A DNA stretch of 10,652 nt from Bacteroidota bacterium (GTDB lineage: Bacteria; Bacteroidota; Bacteroidia; Bacteroidales; Prolixibacteraceae): NCBI GenBank assembly GCA_030691295.1, contig JAUYEQ010000638.1:1-10652 (forward strand), given 5' to 3'. The stretch's first letter is position 1. The number at the start of each line of letters is the position of its first letter. Positions 1,194 to 10,652 of the stretch are shown piece by piece. A model generated the notes under the pieces. That model was given only the letters and a program-made list of their open reading frames with translations, did no database searches and had not been told where the DNA came from. Made by a program: the position numbers and the translations under genes.

Positions 1194-1315
1194 GATTAAA
1201 TATATTACAGGGAATTGATAAAATGATAAAAAATCTGTAGCAAAAAACAATGTCTATTGCTTTTACAGCCATTAAATGCGAATGCCATATCTGGAATTAT
1301 TATGAATAAATCAAA
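1194..1315. other. AT-rich gap between the GH95 gene and the hipBA operator
   Basis: This intergenic DNA follows the GH95 stop codon (TAA, 1316-1318). I see no coding potential and no convincing intrinsic terminator. The only hairpin before a T-run on the minus strand (near 1246-1258, read right to left) has a 4-bp stem. A perfect tandem 8-mer, TGATAAAA twice, lies at 1216-1231 upstream of the hipBA promoter and could be a minor protein-binding site or chance in AT-rich DNA. Confidence 0.4.
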
Positions 1316-3754
1316 TTAATTGAATGATTGATTATCAAGCAATTGCTTCTGGCCTTTTTGCATTGCCGGGAGTTCGGCAGTTTTTTCCTTGTACCTAACA
1401 GGGGAGGAGCCTCCATTTCTGGAATAGATTGTGGCAGAAACCAACTGATTGTTTTCCCATTTGATATCCACCACAAAGCCGCCCCGGGCAACCAATCCTC
1501 TTACTTCGCCATTTTTCCATGCTGATGGTAATGCAGGCAACAATTCGATGCAGCCATTATGGCTTTGCAACAACATTTCTGCAATACCGGCTGTCGCTCC
1601 AAAGTTTCCATCGATCTGGAAAGGTGGATGGCCACAGAACAGATTAGCATACGTTCCTCCGGCGTTGGACATGTTGATTTTGTAATTTTCGGTTGGACGA
1701 AGCAGGTTTTTTAATAGTTGGTAGGCTCGGTCACCATCTTTGAGCCTTGCCCAAAAGTTTACTTTCCAGGCCAGCGACCAGCCTGTTCCGATATCAGTTC
1801 TGGCCTCCAGACTTTTCCTGACTGCCCCTGCCAGTTCAGGTGTCTTCTGTATATCAACCTGATTGCCGGGATGCAACATATACAAATGCGAGGTATGCCG
1901 GTGGGTGGGTTCTGTTTCTTTGAATTCTTCACTCCATTCCATCAGTCGCCCATCTGATCCGATTTTTGGAAGAGCAAGATTTTGTAAAGCGATATCAATT
2001 GTGTCCAGCAATGGATTGGTATCTTTTAATATTTCTGAAGCATTTAGCACATTGGTGAACAGTTCGTGCAGAATCTGCTGATCGTGTGATGGACCCATGC
2101 TCATTGAACAAACTGAGCCATCAGGAGCGACAAAGGTGTTCTCTGGTGACGTGGCGGGGCCTGAAACCAATTTGCCGGAGGCCGGGTCTTTCACCAGCCA
2201 GTCGAGGTAAAACTGTGCCGATTTCAGCATGATTGGATAAACCCGTTCCAGATATTTTTGATCCTGTGTAAAGGTGTAATGATCCCAAAGGTGCTGACAC
2301 AACCAACCTCCGGCAGCCACATGCATTCCCCATCCCGGATGTTCGCCCGGAGCAGTGTAACCCCAAACATTGGTAATTGGATGGATACACCATCCGTTCG
2401 CTTTGTATTGCACCGATGCGGTCACTTCTCCGGGTTTCACCAGCGACTCGATCAGGTCGGTCAACGGCCCGTGACATTCAGAAAGATTTGTTACATCAGC
2501 CGGCCAATAGTTCATCTGAACATTGATGTCGGTATGGTAGTCGCAGTTCCACGGAGTCTGTATTTTGTTGGCCCAGATGCCTTGCAAGTTGGCTGGCAGA
2601 GAACCTTCTCTGGAAGAGGAGATCAGCAGGTAGCGCCCAAACTGAAAATATGTTTCCTGCAAGCGGAGATCGTCAGGATTCTTTTCCTGATTTTTCAGTC
2701 GGACATCGGTTGGAATGGTATCGGGTTCGTTGTTTGTCAATTTTAAACTGACTTTTCCGAAAAGAGCGGAATAATCGTTAGTATGGCTTTTCAAAAGAGC
2801 TGCATATGATTGGGATGCTGCTTTGTTGAGTTGCTCGAGTGTGGTTATCTTCGGATCAGCTCCAAGATAGTTGGGGTATTCCTGTTTGTAATTGGTTGAA
2901 GCGGTCATGAATAAAACCACTTCATCGGCGTTTTGCACCTCCATACTGTTGCCTGAAAAGGTGATCGTTCCACCAGATGCAACAGCCTTTAGCCTGACGG
3001 CATATTGCATTCCATTGCCGCCTTTTCCGTCGTCCATGGTTCCGGTCATCAACAAATGGTCATTTTCGGCGTGTGTTTCAAACCGTTCTGGTCGGGTTAA
3101 GGAAGTTTTAAAGTTCAAAGATCCTTTTTTGTCAGCTGTTAACCGCATTACCAGTGCCCGGTCAGGATAACTGGCAAAAATTTCGCGTTGATAGTTGACA
3201 TCCTCCTGATTGTATGAAACATTGACCACACCCCTGTTCAGGTCGAGTCCCCGGTGATAATTATCAAATGCTGCTGTTTTTCCAAAATCCAGCCGCAAAT
3301 CACCCAATGTCTGAAAGCAGCCAAAAGGAACATTGGCACCATTCCCTTGTCCGGAACCGACTCCTTTGCAAATCTGCGTTTTGTTGGTCAGTTCATTGGC
3401 TTCCTTGTACTTGCCCTCGAACAACAATTGCCTGATTTTTCCCAGTGAAGCGAAAGCATCGGGATTGTTGTCGTCGTTTGGACTGCCTGACCACAAAGTT
3501 TTTTCGTTGAGCTGAAGGCGTTCCTGATTAACATCGCCGAATACCATTGCCCCCAGAAATCCATTACCAACAGGCAATGCTCTGAGCCATTCGGCATCGT
3601 TTATCCAGCCCTCTTTCACATCTTCCACCGAAGAATTCGCAGGCTGATTGTACCAAAGTTTGAGGTGAGATTGTTCAGTTTCTTTTTTTTCTGAATAGCA
3701 TGACACTAAAAAGAATAACGCAAGTGTCAGGATGTGGAATCGGTTTAATTTCAT
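1316..3754 (-). CDS. GH95 family alpha-L-fucosidase-like lipoprotein
   Basis: This 812-residue protein belongs to glycoside hydrolase family 95, whose characterised members are inverting alpha-1,2-L-fucosidases (AfcA) and alpha-L-galactosidases. A lipoprotein signal ends in LVSC (Cys19) and is followed by YSEKKE, so it is probably membrane-anchored and possibly on the surface. The N-terminal beta domain spans about 32-300, including [14 protein letters not shown] at 60-73. The (alpha/alpha)6 catalytic domain spans about 360-725 and a C-terminal beta domain 735-800. SPEN at 536-539 supplies the likely general acid Glu538. QIDGNFG at 713-719 supplies Asp715, matching Asp766 of AfcA. HTDIN at 407-411 matches the AfcA H-x-N-x-N motif, but the first Asn is Asp409 here. 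His407 favours fucose over L-galactose, from what I recall of the family. Length is normal. It follows susD across a strong terminator, so it may have its own promoter or depend on read-through. Confidence 0.93.
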
Positions 3755-3813
3755 GTTGATGTGAATAATTTATTGGATGTGTCAGTTGGTTAAAGGCTTG
3801 AAAAGAGGAATCG
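3755..3813 (-). other. Leader of the GH95 gene
   Basis: About 60 bases separate the susD terminator from the GH95 ATG (3752-3754). The leader is AT-rich near the start and has no Shine-Dalgarno-like purine block, as is common in Bacteroidota. I found no TAnnTTTG box, so a dedicated housekeeping promoter is not evident. Confidence 0.4.
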
Positions 3814-3851
3814 AAAAAGAAACGAGAGAGCATTTTAAACTCTCTCGTTTC
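3814..3851 (-). terminator. Intrinsic terminator after susD
   Basis: GAAACGAGAGAG (3819-3830) and CTCTCTCGTTTC (3840-3851) make a perfect 12-bp stem with a 9-base loop. On the minus strand it is followed by TTTTT (complement of 3814-3818). It starts 10 bases after the susD stop codon (3862-3864). It should end or strongly reduce transcripts from the susCD unit before the GH95 gene. Confidence 0.85.
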
Positions 3852-3861
3852 AACTTATTAT

Positions 3862-5412
3862 CTATTTGTAATCCGGATTCTGGACTAAAACGCCGTGGTT
3901 TTTATCTATTTCATTTTGTGGAAGCGGCCAGTGGTAGAATTTGTCTTCCCATTTGTATGGAAGCATACCGTCGGTAACATTGTTTAAAATTTCACCTGCA
4001 ATGTGCCATCTTTTAAGGTCGAAATAGCGCAAGCCCTCAAAAGCCAGCTCAATTCTTCTTTCCTTTCTGATTCTTTCACGCATTTCAGCTTTAGACAAAC
4101 CAGCGGGATAAGGAGGCATGTCAACACGGGCACGCAAATCTGTTATCGCCTTATAAACAGAAGCATCCGGACCTGCAATTTCATTTTGAGCTTCAGCATA
4201 CATCAGTAAAACTTCACCTAACCTCAAAACAACAGAATTCTGCTGACTAAGCGTGGTATAGCCATAAGGTGTATTTTCAGGACAAAGGAATTTTTTCAGG
4301 CCATAACCGGTTGGACGGCTATTGGTTGGAAAATGCACGTTGCCACCTCCCCAGTCAGGATGGTCAACAAAAACGGTCTTGGATAACCTTGGGTCTCTGT
4401 TTGAAAAAGGATTTGCAGCATCAGTAAGCGGTGAAACACCCCAGGGCAGTCCGTCGGTACATTCAAACGAATTGACAAAACTTTGAAGCGGACTCACCAC
4501 AATCCAGTCGCCATAAATTAAATCGGCTGCATAGGTAGGAACATTGTCGGGTGCCAGATAATTTACTGAATAGATAATTTCAGGATTTGTGCTCTGCCCT
4601 TTATCCTGAAAAACAGCTTCAAACACAGGACTCAATGAATACTGAGGGATAACCTGCAAACACAAATCTCTAACTTGTGTCAACTTCTCAATATTCGGTG
4701 TTCCGTTGTTTCCATACGCATCATAAATCAAAACGCGGGCTTTTAAAGCCTGTGCAGTTGATTTGGTTACATGCCCTGTATTTTGAAAGTAGGGAACGGT
4801 ATTCAGATTGGCAATTGCAAAATCAAGATCGGTAATTACCTGAGCCAGTATCTGGGCTGCCGGAACTTTAGGTTGTTCCTGCGTTTCAAGGGTTAATGGC
4901 TCAAGAATAAGAGGCACATCGCCATAAGCGCTATACAATTGGAAGTAATAATAAGCCCTCAAAAACCTGATTTCAGCCTCTGCTCTTTTTTTATCAGCAT
5001 CCGGGAAATCAGTTCCCTTGTATGCGCTCAATTCTTTCAGGAAAATATTTCCCCTGGCTATCGCCTGATAACTAAGCGAATATACCAATGAGATGTAACC
5101 GCCTGTTGTTGAGCTGATGTCTCCGGAAGCAATTGCTTTTGAGTTGAAATTATTGTGTTGCCCAAAACAATTGTCGGTTATACAATCCCAGTTGGGAAGC
5201 AGATATGACCATACTCCTCCGGGAGGGTTGTCCCAAGGCGCTCCGGTTGTATTAAGTCCGTAGTTAGCGGTTAGCGCCATGTCAAAATCTGTTTTGGATT
5301 TCCAGAACGTACTTGAAGAAATCTGATCCAGTGGATTTCTATCCAAATAATTATCACATCCGCTTAAAAGAAGGATGGATATTACGAAGAATGGTATTAT
5401 ATATCTTTTCAT
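3862..5412 (-). CDS. SusD/RagB-family outer-membrane glycan-binding lipoprotein
   Basis: This intact 516-residue SusD homologue forms the lid of a SusC transporter and captures oligosaccharides at the cell surface. The signal peptide ends in the lipobox LSGC (Cys19), followed by DNYLDRNPLDQIS, a stretch characteristic of the family. TPR-like helices are visible at 143-169 (RAEAEIRFLRAYYYFQLYSA and onward), 394-411 and 447-469, the last with FEGLRYFDLKRW at 458-469. The C-terminal signature HWPLPQNEIDKN (494-505) leads into VQNPDYK at the end. It starts 12 bases after the susC stop, so the two genes are surely co-transcribed and probably translated together. SusD sequence alone does not reveal the glycan; the GH95 neighbour hints at fucose. 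The length and terminal motifs show no damage, in contrast to its susC partner. Confidence 0.96.
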   Translation of the reverse strand: MKRYIIPFFVISILLLSGCDNYLDRNPLDQISSSTFWKSKTDFDMALTANYGLNTTGAPWDNPPGGVWSYLLPNWDCITDNCFGQHNNFNSKAIASGDISSTTGGYISLVYSLSYQAIARGNIFLKELSAYKGTDFPDADKKRAEAEIRFLRAYYYFQLYSAYGDVPLILEPLTLETQEQPKVPAAQILAQVITDLDFAIANLNTVPYFQNTGHVTKSTAQALKARVLIYDAYGNNGTPNIEKLTQVRDLCLQVIPQYSLSPVFEAVFQDKGQSTNPEIIYSVNYLAPDNVPTYAADLIYGDWIVVSPLQSFVNSFECTDGLPWGVSPLTDAANPFSNRDPRLSKTVFVDHPDWGGGNVHFPTNSRPTGYGLKKFLCPENTPYGYTTLSQQNSVVLRLGEVLLMYAEAQNEIAGPDASVYKAITDLRARVDMPPYPAGLSKAEMRERIRKERRIELAFEGLRYFDLKRWHIAGEILNNVTDGMLPYKWEDKFYHWPLPQNEIDKNHGVLVQNPDYK

Positions 5413-5424
5413 GTCTGATAGTTT

Positions 5425-7986
5425 TTAAAATTTAACATTTACACCGAAAGAATAAATCTTATTCTGAGGGTAGTTTACGAAAGAACCGCTACCACCACGC
5501 TCAGGATCTAAGCCGGGATATTTGGTCAATGTAACAAGATTATCTCCTGAGAAATACACCCTCAATTGCTGTATTCCCGCACGTTGTGTCAGTTGATTAG
5601 GCAGCGTATAACCAAAAGTTAAATTTTTCAGTCTGAAATAGGAACCATCCTGGAGATACCATGAAGAATTGCGTCTGATACGTTCAGGTGCTCCCCATCC
5701 CCAATACATGCGGGGCATGGTAGTTGAAGGATTGGATTCAGTCCAGCGGTCTCGCCAGTCAGTTGTTGGAGGCGAACCCTGAACAAAAGGAATTGTTCCC
5801 CAGTCATTTACGAAATACTTAACATTTTCAACTCCCTGGAATTGTGCTGACAAATCAAAACCTCTCCAGTTGGAAGACAAATTAAATGCATAGTTAAAAG
5901 CGGGGTATCTTCCAGAAATTGGGATTCTGTCGTCATTGTCCACTTTACCATCTTTGTTCGCATCTTTAAACTTCAAATCGCCTGGTACCGTTGCATCAGT
6001 AAATTGTTTTGGAGAATTGGTAATTTCGGTGGTTGACTGAAAAATGCCAATCCACTCCAGCATATAAAATGAATCCCATTCATAACCTTCTTCTCTTAAA
6101 GAATAGCCACTGATTTCACGTGCTCCAAAATCAACCAGTTTATTCTTGTAATGGTCAATATTAAATCCGAGGTTGTAATTCAATCCTGAAAAATAACCTG
6201 AATTAACGCGGTTGGTGTATTGAAGGCCCAATTCAACGCCTGAATTTTCCATGGTACCATTGTTTACTGTTGGTGGGTTTAATCCAACTGCATCGGTAAC
6301 CTGAGAACCTCTTAAAATATCCGTTGTTGTTTTCTTATACCAGTCAAAAGTTACATTCAATCCCTGAAAGGCAGTAAGGTCAAAACCAAAGTCGAGGATG
6401 GAAGTAGTTTCCCACATGATATTTGGATTGGCCAAACTTGTTTGTGCAACTCCTGAAGATAAGCTTGAGTCATTAAATGAATAATTTCCGGTTAAAGCAA
6501 GGATTGACTGGTATGGATACAAACCAATGTTCTGATTTCCAAGCTCTCCGTACGAACCTCTGATTTTCAAGCTGTTCAGCCAGTTTAGGTCAAGGTCTTT
6601 CACAAACTGTTCTTCGGTTACCCTCCAGCCAGCTGAAAACGACGGGAAAACACCCCAGCGGGAATCCGGATTTAACCGTGAAGTACCGTCATACCTTAAG
6701 TTTGCTTCCAAAAGATAACGATCTTTAAAGTTGTACCCCAACCTGCCAAAGAATGACATCATTGCCCATTCGTTTTGAGTGCCGGTTGCTTGTTGTACCG
6801 ATGGACTTCCGGCATTCAGCTGCCTGAGCACATCACTTGGATAGTTCTTCCGGTACCCGTTTAAATATTGATATACATTGTCTTCCATGCTGTAACCTGC
6901 CTGTGCAGACACCTTGTGTCCATCGCCAAATTCCTGATCAAAATTCAGGTAGGTATAAAGGTTTTTATACACATTTTGATCATCCTGAACAACTAACCCA
7001 GAACCACCAACATCTAACAAAGTCATAAATTCATTTGTCCGGAAATTGTACAAAGGAACCTGAGCCCTGAAATCGTAGTATTTGCTAAAATCCATGTTTA
7101 CAGCAGCTTTCGTGTACCATTTAAGTCCTTTCAGCAACTGTATGTCAAGCCATCCCTGTGAGGAAATAACGTAATCGTCGGTATTTCTGTTGACTTTATT
7201 GTCGATAAGTGCAATAGGGCTTTTGTTGTTATACTCAAAGTCGTAGGCTTTAAATGTATATCTGCCGCTGCCGTCAGCAAGCTGCGGCGAGTAGGTCGGG
7301 GCCTGTGACATGGCTGCCAGGAATGTGTCTGCAGCTCCCTGGCGCGGTGCCGATTTTACTCCTTTTTTTACCGAGAAATTTGCGCCAAATTTAATTTTAT
7401 CATTCACCTGCGAGCTTAGGTTAACCCGAATATTGTACTTTTCATAGTTAAAGCCTTTCATGATACCTTCCTGATTTACATACCCCAGCGATATGTCAAA
7501 TCTAGTACCCCCGGTACCCCCGCTAAAACTCAAATTGTGAGTTTGGGTAGGTGCTGGATTGAATATCAGGTCGAGCCAATCAGTATTTGGATACAAATTA
7601 CGGTCAGTTGCATTGCGGTAGGTGTTTATTATATCCTGACTGTAAAGTCCAGATGTTAATCCGGAGTTGAGCCTTGCTTCATTAAACATTTCCATGTACT
7701 CGGCTGAGTTTGTTATCAGTTCATACATTTTAGTGGGCGTATGGACACCATAATTTCCACTGTATTCCATGCTGATTTTGCCCTCTTTGCCAGTTTTTGT
7801 GGTTACCAGAATAACTCCGTTGGCAGCTCTGGCTCCGTAAATTGAGGCAGAAGCGGCATCTTTCAAAACTGAGATATTTTCAATGTTGTTGGGGTTTAAG
7901 TCGGAAAGGTTACCCTGTACTCCATCGATTAATACCAATGGGTTTGAGCCGGCACTACTGAAGGTTCCGGTACCACGAATACGAAT
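5425..7986 (-). CDS. SusC C-terminal fragment: rest of plug and 22-strand-type barrel
   Basis: These 853 codons continue the plug right after the stop: IRIRGTGTF, then NPLVLIDGVQG, then ENISVLKDAASASIYGARA, all hallmark SusC plug segments. The barrel follows with the SusC signature YPNTDWLDLIF and periodic aromatic-rich strands, a calcium-like DANKDGKVDNDDRIP loop, and a C-terminal KIYSFGVNVKF ending in Phe as outer-membrane barrels do. No ATG with a plausible leader lies just after the stop; a TTG at 7936-7938 is the first possible restart. A restarted product would lack a signal peptide and could not reach the outer membrane. The segment is therefore functional only if the stop is read through or is an error. 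Confidence 0.75.
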   Translation of the reverse strand: MRIRGTGTFSSAGSNPLVLIDGVQGNLSDLNPNNIENISVLKDAASASIYGARAANGVILVTTKTGKEGKISMEYSGNYGVHTPTKMYELITNSAEYMEMFNEARLNSGLTSGLYSQDIINTYRNATDRNLYPNTDWLDLIFNPAPTQTHNLSFSGGTGGTRFDISLGYVNQEGIMKGFNYEKYNIRVNLSSQVNDKIKFGANFSVKKGVKSAPRQGAADTFLAAMSQAPTYSPQLADGSGRYTFKAYDFEYNNKSPIALIDNKVNRNTDDYVISSQGWLDIQLLKGLKWYTKAAVNMDFSKYYDFRAQVPLYNFRTNEFMTLLDVGGSGLVVQDDQNVYKNLYTYLNFDQEFGDGHKVSAQAGYSMEDNVYQYLNGYRKNYPSDVLRQLNAGSPSVQQATGTQNEWAMMSFFGRLGYNFKDRYLLEANLRYDGTSRLNPDSRWGVFPSFSAGWRVTEEQFVKDLDLNWLNSLKIRGSYGELGNQNIGLYPYQSILALTGNYSFNDSSLSSGVAQTSLANPNIMWETTSILDFGFDLTAFQGLNVTFDWYKKTTTDILRGSQVTDAVGLNPPTVNNGTMENSGVELGLQYTNRVNSGYFSGLNYNLGFNIDHYKNKLVDFGAREISGYSLREEGYEWDSFYMLEWIGIFQSTTEITNSPKQFTDATVPGDLKFKDANKDGKVDNDDRIPISGRYPAFNYAFNLSSNWRGFDLSAQFQGVENVKYFVNDWGTIPFVQGSPPTTDWRDRWTESNPSTTMPRMYWGWGAPERIRRNSSWYLQDGSYFRLKNLTFGYTLPNQLTQRAGIQQLRVYFSGDNLVTLTKYPGLDPERGGSGSFVNYPQNKIYSFGVNVKF

Positions 7987-8799
7987 TTATACTCCCTCGT
8001 TGCCTGGTTCTCCTGAATTTTGGGTTACCTGAACGCCCGGCATCAATCCTTGTATCATGGTTCCTGCATTTGTTACAGGGCGTTTGATCATATCAGCACC
8101 ATTAACCGTGGCAATCGCTCCTGTCAGATTAACTTTTTTCTGTGTACCATACCCAATTGCAACCACTTCTTCAATTCCAATTGCATCTTCGGCAAGTGTA
8201 ACATTGATGTTTGTTTTTCCACCAACGACCACTTCCTGCATTTTCATCCCTACAAACGAAAATTGCAGTATTGAATTGGCCGGAACATTGGACATGGAAT
8301 AATTCCCGTTGGCATCGGTTATAGTACCTGTTGTAGTACCTTTTACCACCACCGAAACGCCCGGCAATCCGATGCCCGATGAATCAGTAACTTTACCCGA
8401 AACGCTGTTGGCTTGCTGCGAAAAAGCACTGTTGGTGTTTTCGGAGAAAAGCAAGATTTGCCTGTTTACAATCCTGTAATTGACCTCTGTTCCTTCAAAC
8501 AGTTTTTGAAGCACCTGATCGATGTTCATAGAGTTCACTTCCATATTCACTTTACGCTCAACGTCAACTTGTTTGTTGTCGAACATGAAAAAGAATTCGC
8601 TCTGATTTTCGATTTGACTGAGGACTTCCTTCACCTGGGTATTTTGAACCTTCAGGTTGAGTTTGGTTTTTTGTGCATAACTGCTTGAGTAGGCACTAAA
8701 AACACTGAGAACCAATAGGAATAGCGTTAGTCGCATAACTAAAAGAATTTTTTGTGCCATCGGATTTCGCCGAAACACGTCCATTAATTTTTTTTTCAT
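7987..8799 (-). CDS. SusC N-terminal fragment: signal peptide, STN, regulatory-like domain, TonB box
   Basis: If translated as it stands, this gives 270 residues. A long basic N-region and hydrophobic core (about 17-36) lead to a likely signal cleavage after SYA (residue 42). An STN domain at about 46-118 is the part that contacts FecR in transducing TonB-dependent receptors. A carboxypeptidase-regulatory-like beta-sandwich spans 131-202 (VSGKVTDSSGIGLPGVSV and onward). The TonB box region is EEVVAIGYGTQKK at 210-222, and the first part of the plug reaches 270. I chose the ATG at 8797-8799 over the longer frame starting at 8868 because the MKKKL start gives a conventional signal peptide. Without the barrel this product would be a soluble periplasmic protein that cannot transport, though it could in principle still touch FecR. 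Confidence 0.8.
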   Translation of the reverse strand: MKKKLMDVFRRNPMAQKILLVMRLTLFLLVLSVFSAYSSSYAQKTKLNLKVQNTQVKEVLSQIENQSEFFFMFDNKQVDVERKVNMEVNSMNIDQVLQKLFEGTEVNYRIVNRQILLFSENTNSAFSQQANSVSGKVTDSSGIGLPGVSVVVKGTTTGTITDANGNYSMSNVPANSILQFSFVGMKMQEVVVGGKTNINVTLAEDAIGIEEVVAIGYGTQKKVNLTGAIATVNGADMIKRPVTNAGTMIQGLMPGVQVTQNSGEPGNEGV

Positions 8800-8896
8800 A
8801 ATTTTGAATGATTTAGTTTTTGAATTTTTGATGCAGTACTTTTTCTCAGGAAGCCATTTGCATCTCAAATTCGGTTCAACAATAAAACTAACTTAG
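8800..8896 (-). promoter_or_regulatory. susC leader / fecR-susC intergenic region
   Basis: This 97-base stretch separates the hairpin at 8897-8923 from the susC ATG and is AT-rich next to the start codon. On the minus strand I see no full TAnnTTTG box; the closest is CGAATTTG around 8866, consistent with a promoter read by an alternative (ECF) sigma factor, or with transcription from fecR. On the plus strand TACTTTTT (8837-8844) and a TTG at 8820-8822 form the best, still imperfect, candidate for a divergent antisense promoter. Confidence 0.35.
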
Positions 8897-8929
8897 AACA
8901 GGGAGCCTCGAACGCTTCCTGTTTTTTTT
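8897..8929 (+). terminator. Plus-strand intrinsic terminator in the fecR-susC gap
   Basis: AACAGGGAGC (8897-8906) and GCTTCCTGTT (8914-8923) form a 10-bp stem with one G-T wobble and a 7-base loop, followed on the plus strand by an unbroken run of eight T (8922-8929). On the minus strand the A-run precedes the stem and no immediate U-run follows, so the signal is oriented for plus-strand transcription. No plus-strand gene precedes it; a short antisense RNA is the likely client. Confidence 0.6.
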
Positions 8930-8944
8930 GATTTCAGGATCACC

Positions 8945-9943
8945 TCATCGTTTTTTGTATTTAATGGTAACTTGTTCTCCTTCAATTTGGTATTGAATTG
9001 GCGTGATGTATGAAATCAGCTCCATTACTTCGCGCAAACTTTCGGTTTTTACTTTAAATGTGTAATTGTGCCTGTAATATAAACTCTTGTCGAGTTGAAT
9101 TTTCACCCCGTACCAATTCTCCAGGTAATAGATAACCTCTTCGAAAGGCTGGTTGTCGAATATCAGCATGTTGTTCAGCCAGGCTGTCAGCGCTTCCAAA
9201 TTTTCGGCCTTCTGTAAATGATATTTCCCATCGCTGAATACCAATTGCTGCCCGGGAATTAATTCCGAAATCAATTTATCCTGAAGGCTTAATACCTCAA
9301 CTTTTCCTGAAACCAGTGTCACATCGGCTGTATTCTTCAGGTTGTGTTCATTTATATTAAACCGCGTTCCATATACCTTCACCTTAAATTTTGAGCCGCT
9401 CACTACGAATGGATGCTCCGGATCTTTTACCACATCAAAAAAGCATTCGCCTTTCATTTGCACTTCGCGGTTTTCAGCCGAATAATCTGAAGGGTACTGC
9501 AATTCAGATCCTGAATTGAGCCATACATAAGTACTGTCAGGCAAAATAATCTGGGTTTTATTTCCTTCAGGAGCAATTATTTTGGTGTAAGAAATGGCAG
9601 TTTGTGTTGTGGTGAAACCATCACCCAAACCAATTCCGGCCAGAAACACAATTGCCAGAATAGCGGCGGCGGCGGCCCACCTGAAATAAATGTTTTGAAT
9701 TGCTTTTTGTTTTGGCTGATAATTGATCAGTTTCATCAGTTTCTGCCAGTTAATGGTCATGTCGGGCTGGTAGAATTCAGTTTTATTTTTGGTGAGCGAC
9801 CATGTATTCACAATCTCCGATAAAATCAGAGAATTTTCAGGGGAACTATCCAGCCAATTATGAATTTGCTTCCTCTGCTCCTGATCAGCATCGTTTTTTA
9901 ACTTTGCTGAAATCGCCTCCCATGGTATGTTTTGTTGTTGCAT
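8945..9943 (-). CDS. FecR-like anti-sigma factor with C-terminal DUF4974
   Basis: This 332-residue inner-membrane regulator should hold an ECF sigma factor inactive until the SusC STN domain reports substrate. Residues 1-80 are the cytoplasmic sigma-binding part. One membrane helix lies at about 88-107, rich in Ala. The periplasmic FecR domain follows at about 120-218, with the family hallmark APEGNKTQIILPDSTYVWLN at 124-143 and YGTRFNI at 191-197. A DUF4974-type domain occupies about 255-330. This architecture is standard for glycan-locus anti-sigma factors in Bacteroidota. The susC gene follows after 145 bases. Oddly, no ECF sigma gene precedes it: the next gene upstream is an unrelated TIM-barrel enzyme ending in its own terminator. 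The ATG at 9941-9943 is the first Met and is preceded by an AT-rich leader. Confidence 0.93.
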   Translation of the reverse strand: MQQQNIPWEAISAKLKNDADQEQRKQIHNWLDSSPENSLILSEIVNTWSLTKNKTEFYQPDMTINWQKLMKLINYQPKQKAIQNIYFRWAAAAAILAIVFLAGIGLGDGFTTTQTAISYTKIIAPEGNKTQIILPDSTYVWLNSGSELQYPSDYSAENREVQMKGECFFDVVKDPEHPFVVSGSKFKVKVYGTRFNINEHNLKNTADVTLVSGKVEVLSLQDKLISELIPGQQLVFSDGKYHLQKAENLEALTAWLNNMLIFDNQPFEEVIYYLENWYGVKIQLDKSLYYRHNYTFKVKTESLREVMELISYITPIQYQIEGEQVTIKYKKR

Positions 9944-9979
9944 AAATATTGTCTTACATGTATATGTCGCAGAAAACGA

Positions 9980-10011
9980 AAAAATCCCTCAACCGAAATT
10001 AAGGGATTTTT
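9980..10011 (-). terminator. Intrinsic terminator after the TIM-barrel gene (possibly bidirectional)
   Basis: AAAAATCCCT (9980-9989) and AGGGATTTTT (10002-10011) pair perfectly over 10 bp. On the minus-strand RNA the stem can extend inward through T-G and A-T pairs to a UUCG tetraloop, and the hairpin ends in a run of U. It lies between the TIM-barrel stop (10103) and the fecR start (9943). The A and T runs on both sides mean it could also act on plus-strand transcripts. Confidence 0.75.
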
Positions 10012-10030
10012 CCATTTATTTTTATCTGTC

Positions 10031-10038
10031 CAAATATA
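10031..10038 (-). promoter_or_regulatory. Possible -7 promoter box upstream of fecR
   Basis: Read on the minus strand this is TATATTTG, an exact fit to the Bacteroidota -7 consensus TAnnTTTG. A TTG lies only 11 bases further upstream, too close for a standard -33 element. If used, transcription would begin near 10024 and pass through the hairpin at 9980-10011 before reaching fecR. Such boxes also occur by chance in AT-rich DNA. Confidence 0.3.
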
Positions 10039-10102
10039 TATCTATAAATCAATTATTTACAGATCATTTAATTTTTATCAGAATCGTATTTTTGCCTGAA
10101 GT

Positions 10103-10652
10103 TTATACCAAAATCTTTGTTGTAAGGTTACTGATGCTGATTTCAAGTTCCTCAAAAGTATTTCCGTTACCCTGGTTATCGTCTTCAACAAACAGGTATT
10201 TCATTCCTGCTGTTTCTTTTGCAGCCAGTATCCTTTTGAAATCAATTACACCAGCACCAACCGAACAAACATCATCTTTGATTACATCAAAAAATGGCGC
10301 TTCGTTGGTTTTCATATCTTTAAAGTGCAAAAGCTGGAAACGACCAGGATATTTGCCAAACATCTCTACCGGATCCTGTCCGGCTTTGTTTGCCCAGAAA
10401 AGATCCAGCTCCATGGTAATCAGGTCAGCATCCATTTCAGGCATGAATATATCATAATAAGGAACAATTCCATCAATATTGGCGAACTCAAAATTATGGT
10501 TGTGGTAACCAAACTGAATTCCCACCCCTTTCATTATTCTTCCAACTTCGTTCCAGTCGCCAATCATTTCTTTGTACGATTCGATGTTGCGGTCTGGCTC
10601 ATTCACCCATGGCTGCACACAATATTTTACGCCAAGCTCGGCATGGTCTTCG
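10103..10652 (-). CDS. Sugar phosphate isomerase/epimerase-like TIM-barrel protein, C-terminal part
   Basis: The frame is open from the right edge to a stop at 10103, giving 182 complete codons plus the stop; the start lies outside the window. A GTG at 10616-10618 is in frame, but coding sequence (EDHAELGVKYC) continues upstream of it, so it is not the start. The protein looks like the xylose isomerase-like / AP endonuclease 2 TIM-barrel superfamily. Likely metal-binding or substrate residues appear in order: FGYHNHNFEF, the strand ITMELDLFW, FQLLHFKDMK and YLFVEDDNQ. These enzymes isomerise or epimerise sugars, keto-sugars or inositol derivatives, usually with a divalent metal. The substrate cannot be deduced. 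A terminator separates it from fecR, so it is probably not in the same transcript, although a role in sugar catabolism would fit the neighbourhood. Confidence 0.82.
   Translation of the reverse strand, partial: EDHAELGVKYCVQPWVNEPDRNIESYKEMIGDWNEVGRIMKGVGIQFGYHNHNFEFANIDGIVPYYDIFMPEMDADLITMELDLFWANKAGQDPVEMFGKYPGRFQLLHFKDMKTNEAPFFDVIKDDVCSVGAGVIDFKRILAAKETAGMKYLFVEDDNQGNGNTFEELEISISNLTTKILV

Follow-up and report, generated by a model that had tools for sequence, protein, structure and literature searches.

The SusC gene of the 10,652-base contig analysed here (the window, by which we mean this whole stretch of DNA) is, by comparison with related loci, a mosaic of an N-terminal head resembling that of one relative and a barrel resembling that of another. 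This feature was absent from the first-pass annotation, which had drawn attention to an in-frame stop codon in the gene, and it is better supported than any account of that stop. It is likely that in these Prolixibacteraceae recombination near the TonB box remakes SusC, with FecR and the STN head kept constant and the barrel, SusD and hydrolase swapped as a cassette. For the stop itself, we lean towards an error in the assembled consensus or a minority allele, ahead of a genuine recent nonsense mutation.

The window belongs to the host assembly G000 (4.44 Mb in 721 contigs, with an estimated completeness of 93%), and its main genes all lie on the minus strand. They code for a xylose-isomerase-like TIM-barrel protein (10103-10651, assigned by domain scan and a match to the related genome G009), a FecR-type anti-sigma factor of 332 aa (8945-9943, with FecR and FecR_C domains, 95% identical to the G009 copy), SusC (8799-5425), a SusD-like protein of 516 aa (3862-5412), a GH95 family glycoside hydrolase of 812 aa (1316-3754, from the domain scan), an HTH protein (797-1153) and a HipA-like protein (1-807). 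The SusD gene adjoins that of SusC and matches SusD_RagB with 155 bits. Members of the GH95 family include fucosidases. The HTH, GH95, SusD and FecR genes are open and the HipA-like and TIM-barrel genes, which are both cut by a contig end, are open as far as they are present. The HTH gene overlaps the HipA-like kinase gene, a placement also found in G009, to which this left flank (1-1153) is 93% identical; we take the two to be a HipBA-type pair.

Two separate parts of the window, 1-1199 and 8144-10651, matched one G009 locus (L063) at 93%, and between these flanks G009 carries a different SusC barrel and a different SusD. Positions 1315-8419 matched a locus of a second related genome, G015 (L042), at 88%. 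FecR, the STN head and both outer flanks of the window are G009-like, and the barrel, SusD and GH95 are G015-like. The junction inside SusC falls in a zone at 8144-8420: identity to G009, followed in 60-base steps, was 83-100% above it and dropped to 68% below 8420, and identity to G015, about 90% below the zone, was 85-93% from 8180 downward, with 8180-8420 close to neither relative. A second junction zone, placed likewise by identity to G009 versus G015, lies at 1200-1315, between the GH95 and the HTH/HipA-like genes. An assembly chimera was considered as the cause of this pattern and rejected as a simple reading, since both flanks return to a single G009 locus at 93%; two independent false joins would be needed, and a single join cannot explain it. 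The displaced G009-type barrel was searched for in G000, where the best match reached 39%, and it has apparently not simply changed place; it could sit in the missing part of an assembly that is 93% complete.

Such exchange has happened more than once, judging from ten SusC proteins whose heads and barrels were compared separately. The heads of the window, G009, G002, G013 and G022 proteins are 77-93% identical and their barrels 27-35%, except for the G002/G022 pair (88%), such that one head occurs with four barrels. Conversely, the barrels of the window, G015, G017, P0001, P0002 and P0003 proteins are 80-98% identical and their heads 25-52%, except for P0002/P0003 (85%), which gives one barrel with five heads. 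FecR tracks the head, being 81-95% identical in G009, G002, G013 and G022 and 27% in G015. In each of the ten sequences the head/barrel border falls at an EVVAIGYG motif within the TonB-box region. Overall, two units reassort between relatives, across the window and the loci L063, L042, L064, L065, L066 and L067: the head, with its STN domain and accompanying FecR, and the barrel, accompanied by SusD and, here, also by the hydrolase.

Recombination is known to generate SusC diversity at the phase-variable SusC/SusD loci of Bacteroides, through DNA inversion and shufflons. The window differs from these in that the difference is seen between species and has its border between head and barrel, and no invertase domain was detected among the eight window proteins scanned. 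Among the matches listed in open-licence PubMed Central, taken by their titles and the starts of their abstracts, we found no report of head/barrel exchange in SusC and none of natural nonsense alleles of SusC; in the excerpt of PMC11633381, the stops in glycosidase genes are engineered ones.

The SusC frame runs on the minus strand from 8799 to 5425 and comprises 1124 codons with one internal stop, followed by a terminal TAA. The internal stop, a TAA at 7987-7989, is codon 271 counted from the ATG at 8799, so that SusC is not a continuous open frame. Before it lies a part of 270 aa (7990-8799), recognised by domain and profile matches, that holds the N-terminal region, the STN domain (residues 73-118, PF07660, 47.4 bits), the CarboxypepD_reg/NTE domain (residues 133-213), the TonB-box region and the start of the plug. 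After it come 853 codons and the terminal TAA (5425-7986) that, according to the domain scan, carry the remainder of the Plug domain and the β-barrel, and that are 98% identical to the intact G015 gene. The upstream piece covers positions 2-137 and the downstream piece positions 140-981 of one SusC model, TIGR04056; the downstream piece scores 760 bits against this profile (cut-off 368) and 62.9 bits against TIGR04057 (cut-off 46.2). The first-pass description of a single in-frame TAA splitting an otherwise intact SusC therefore holds, as do its remarks that SusD and the rest of the barrel are undamaged and that the stop occupies the x of the plug motif, which reads GV*IRIRG. It was also right that a homopolymer miscount cannot account for the stop: both sides of the TAA share one frame, with no bases gained or lost.

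With its Plug, barrel and NTE domains and its SusD partner, the gene resembles other SusC/RagA TonB-linked outer membrane proteins (TIGR04056), and differs from them in being broken by one TAA where the listed relatives have a sense codon. Its STN domain precedes the NTE domain, the reverse of what an excerpt of PMC7782687 gives for SusCs, where the NTE comes before the STN.

The stop appears to be private to the window. A search with the downstream piece found 7989 relatives, and the best 120 of these 7989 all have a sense codon at the stop column: serine in 95, asparagine in 12, glycine in 6, threonine in 4, and tyrosine, aspartate and leucine in one each. The closest SusC, from G015, a related metagenome-assembled genome (MAG), is open over 1124 codons, and the 853 residues that follow the stop are 98% identical to it. 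Of the eight named loci matched by the SusC gene, the nearest two belong to Prolixibacteraceae MAGs. Among the matches listed, no Plug match in any row of 61 genomes contained a stop, and in the host genome 1 of 50 Plug matches did, namely the SusC with the TAA at 7987-7989.

These comparisons bear on whether the TAA is read through or recoded so that full-length SusC is made, which would be one way to explain the purifying selection on the barrel downstream of the TAA. A stop serving such a purpose should be common to orthologues. None of the 120 best listed relatives has a stop at this column, nor does the G015 gene, which makes recoding very unlikely. SusC itself, GH95, the HTH gene and the TIM-barrel gene all terminate in TAA. 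A second in-frame TAA in G000, in the gene for the helicase DnaB (described below), stands at a column that is glutamate in relatives and the SusC column is mostly serine, and one reassignment therefore does not fit both. Predicted folding of the RNA surrounding the stop is on a par with shuffled sequences (z -0.02), and neither an Rfam family at gathering scores nor a tRNA was found in the whole window. The doubt that the first-pass annotation had cast on read-through was thus well founded, and of all the readings considered here we rate this one the least probable.

Selection on the barrel was examined in the part of the gene behind the stop. Between the window and G015 this part has 200 synonymous and 23 nonsynonymous differences, a pairwise dN/dS of 0.024. 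Polarisation with G017 assigned 49 synonymous and 2 nonsynonymous codon changes to the window branch, against 60 synonymous and 5 nonsynonymous to the G015 branch, with 98 codons not polarisable; random single changes in the same part would be expected to give 3.38 nonsynonymous per synonymous. Taking the textbook Poisson upper limit for 2 events, 6.3, selection on the barrel can have been absent for no more than about 4% of the window branch. From residue 220 onward, the window departs nowhere but at the stop from columns that hardly vary among its nearest relatives. With no sign of decay in the barrel behind it, the stop is either an error, a minority allele or of extremely recent origin. 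The relaxed selection expected behind the stop of a pseudogene was not seen; the data are compatible with a very young one.

Of these, a consensus error or a minority allele is the reading we hold to be probably right, though by a modest measure of confidence. The TAA would have no function of its own and most likely stems from the assembled consensus of a metagenome-type assembly, through a miscalled base or a minority variant taken into it. The population would carry an intact SusC working as usual: its STN head would contact FecR in the periplasm and report to it, its barrel would import an oligosaccharide together with SusD, and GH95 would help to degrade or trim the imported sugar. The 49 synonymous and 2 nonsynonymous changes of the window branch behind the stop are what an unbroken gene would show.

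A gene elsewhere in the assembly points the same way. A search of G000 gave one full-length DnaB_C gene, the other match being weak, as in most relatives, and this gene has an in-frame TAA at codon 417 (contig C693, L116, 4180-4182). The stop sits in the motif HRP[E]YYG, at a position that is glutamate in 6/6 relatives compared. Since the replicative helicase is essential, only an error or a minority allele can explain this TAA, barring a second copy that the assembly lacks, which could be so at 93% completeness. The DnaB stop suggests that false stops occur in the G000 assembly, and we infer that the SusC stop has the same artefactual origin. At otherwise invariant columns, the G000 DnaB has 3 private changes (the stop and two others), compared with 0 each in its three nearest relatives, G007, G009 and G011, and, among more distant relatives, 5 in G001, 12 in G005 and 115 in G043. 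The odd changes in this gene are not significantly clustered, as 4733 of 20000 random placements reached the observed clustering.

The assembly was also scanned for coding-like frames running on past a stop, over 554,315 bases in 63 records of G000 and, in two relatives as controls, 400,000 bases of G012 and 361,033 bases of G009; many of the contigs had been picked for TonB-type genes. Four such frames were found in G000 (SusC, DnaB, a subtilase and L154) and none in G012 or G009. L154 was rejected as a false stop and represents a C-terminal length difference. The excess is small: with the window left out there are 2 real cases versus 0, for which the chance by share of bases is about 0.17. 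The subtilase gene (contig C279, L083, 8271-10806) has an internal TGA and a frameshift, and its G009 copy is open over 834 codons. Frameshift-like candidates from a looser scan were not in excess, with 5 in 448,625 bases of G000 versus 6 in 400,000 of G012.

An apparently high genome-wide stop rate, with 6 of 36 G009 ORFs disrupted in G000 and 0 of 35 in the reverse direction, dissolved on inspection. Three of the six had stops within their last 7 residues, two (DnaB and the subtilase) lay in loci added after the run-on scan had found them, and the sixth, of 101 aa and antisense to the HipA gene, was taken as spurious. The remaining 30 ORFs were open in this comparison of G009 genes with G000, which gave no mid-gene stop beyond DnaB and the subtilase. 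A TGA in a SusD match on contig C442, tried as a further broken gene, appears to be the natural end of the protein.

The window contig looks otherwise clean. Radical private changes number 0 in the SusC barrel, SusD, FecR and the STN head, and 3 in GH95, as also in the GH95 of G015. All private changes together amount, for the window and G015 respectively, to 5 and 8 in the SusC barrel, 6 and 5 in SusD and 17 and 24 in GH95, and, for the window and G009, to 3 and 4 in FecR and 2 and 3 in the STN head.

With so few stop cases, no excess of frameshifts and a clean contig, a genuine young nonsense mutation is well in play. It would be real and very recent, fixed or at high frequency in the strain, and would truncate SusC inside the plug and abolish SusCD import; it would date from, or postdate, the exchange by which the FecR-STN locus acquired its barrel. 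We regard this whole reading as a serious alternative that falls short of being probable. It is favoured by the isolation of the lesion and by its place in the exchanged part of the mosaic gene, where the loss of an ill-fitting import function is plausible; the stop lies some 50 to 145 codons into that part, depending on the position of the border within the junction zone. Other genes lend it weight: besides the subtilase, a second SusC of G000 (contig C252, L072, 4903-7921) appears frameshifted near the end of its barrel, and short SusC N-terminal proteins occur on long contigs elsewhere, such as P0130, of 360 aa on a contig of 348,479 bases. Such proteins (P0130, P0143, P0196 and P0232, 360-461 aa, on contigs of 132,764-399,000 bases) are possibly truncated genes or contig ends, and broken SusC genes may therefore be no rarity. 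Against a nonsense mutation stand the lack of decay in the 49 synonymous and 2 nonsynonymous changes of the window branch and the suggestion from DnaB that G000 contains false stops. Nonsense pseudogenes and spurious stops of metagenome assemblies both present as one private stop within a frame that is conserved elsewhere, and no feature was seen that would set the SusC stop apart from them. A real stop would abolish import and deprive SusD of its barrel, and an exported head might remain.

With STN on the receptor and FecR directly upstream, the arrangement resembles the TonB-dependent transducers of cell-surface signalling (Fec, Fox and Fiu), and the FecR and the STN-bearing SusC next door to it form a putative cognate pair. 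A possible difference from those systems is that no sigma gene was seen beside the window FecR: no sigma domain was detected in the eight window proteins scanned, in a contig that ends 0.7 kb beyond FecR, and none was seen beside FecR in the G009 locus (L063), where the TIM-barrel gene is found instead. In the loci of G013, G018, G004, G029 and G024 a sigma match lies close to FecR, and in G022 it is 2.3 kb away.

The 270-residue product might itself be kept as a regulator, an exported, barrel-less STN head that binds FecR, prevents its cleavage and keeps the locus silent. Both the STN and the NTE domain lie wholly before the stop, and the head and FecR match the same relative, G009. A precedent comes from Pseudomonas, where, according to an excerpt of PMC11637429, signalling domains overproduced on their own completely inhibited signalling and blocked proteolysis of the anti-sigma factor. 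A search with the 270-residue piece, which found 1690 proteins, tells against this reading, as the sole identical match among the best 120 of 1690 was the window's own contig and the next, labelled partial, was 89% identical over 84% of the length. Constraint still seems to act on the barrel downstream of the stop, and a sigma gene was seen neither beside FecR in the 0.7 kb to the contig end nor in the G009 locus. This use of the head as a decoy is possible, and found no direct support here; we consider it most improbable. More improbable still is a combined course of events in which a cassette was exchanged near the TonB box and the stop then switched the new cassette off, leaving the STN head as a decoy for FecR.

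A consensus error or minority allele remains the preferred origin of the stop. A lone stop in one uncultured genome is of little importance beyond a warning: given the in-frame stop in DnaB, stops in G000 merit a check against the reads before they are put to biological use. The mosaic structure of SusC is the part worth keeping. It suggests that one exchange within a gene could put a glycan importer under a new sensor, or couple a sensor to a new importer.
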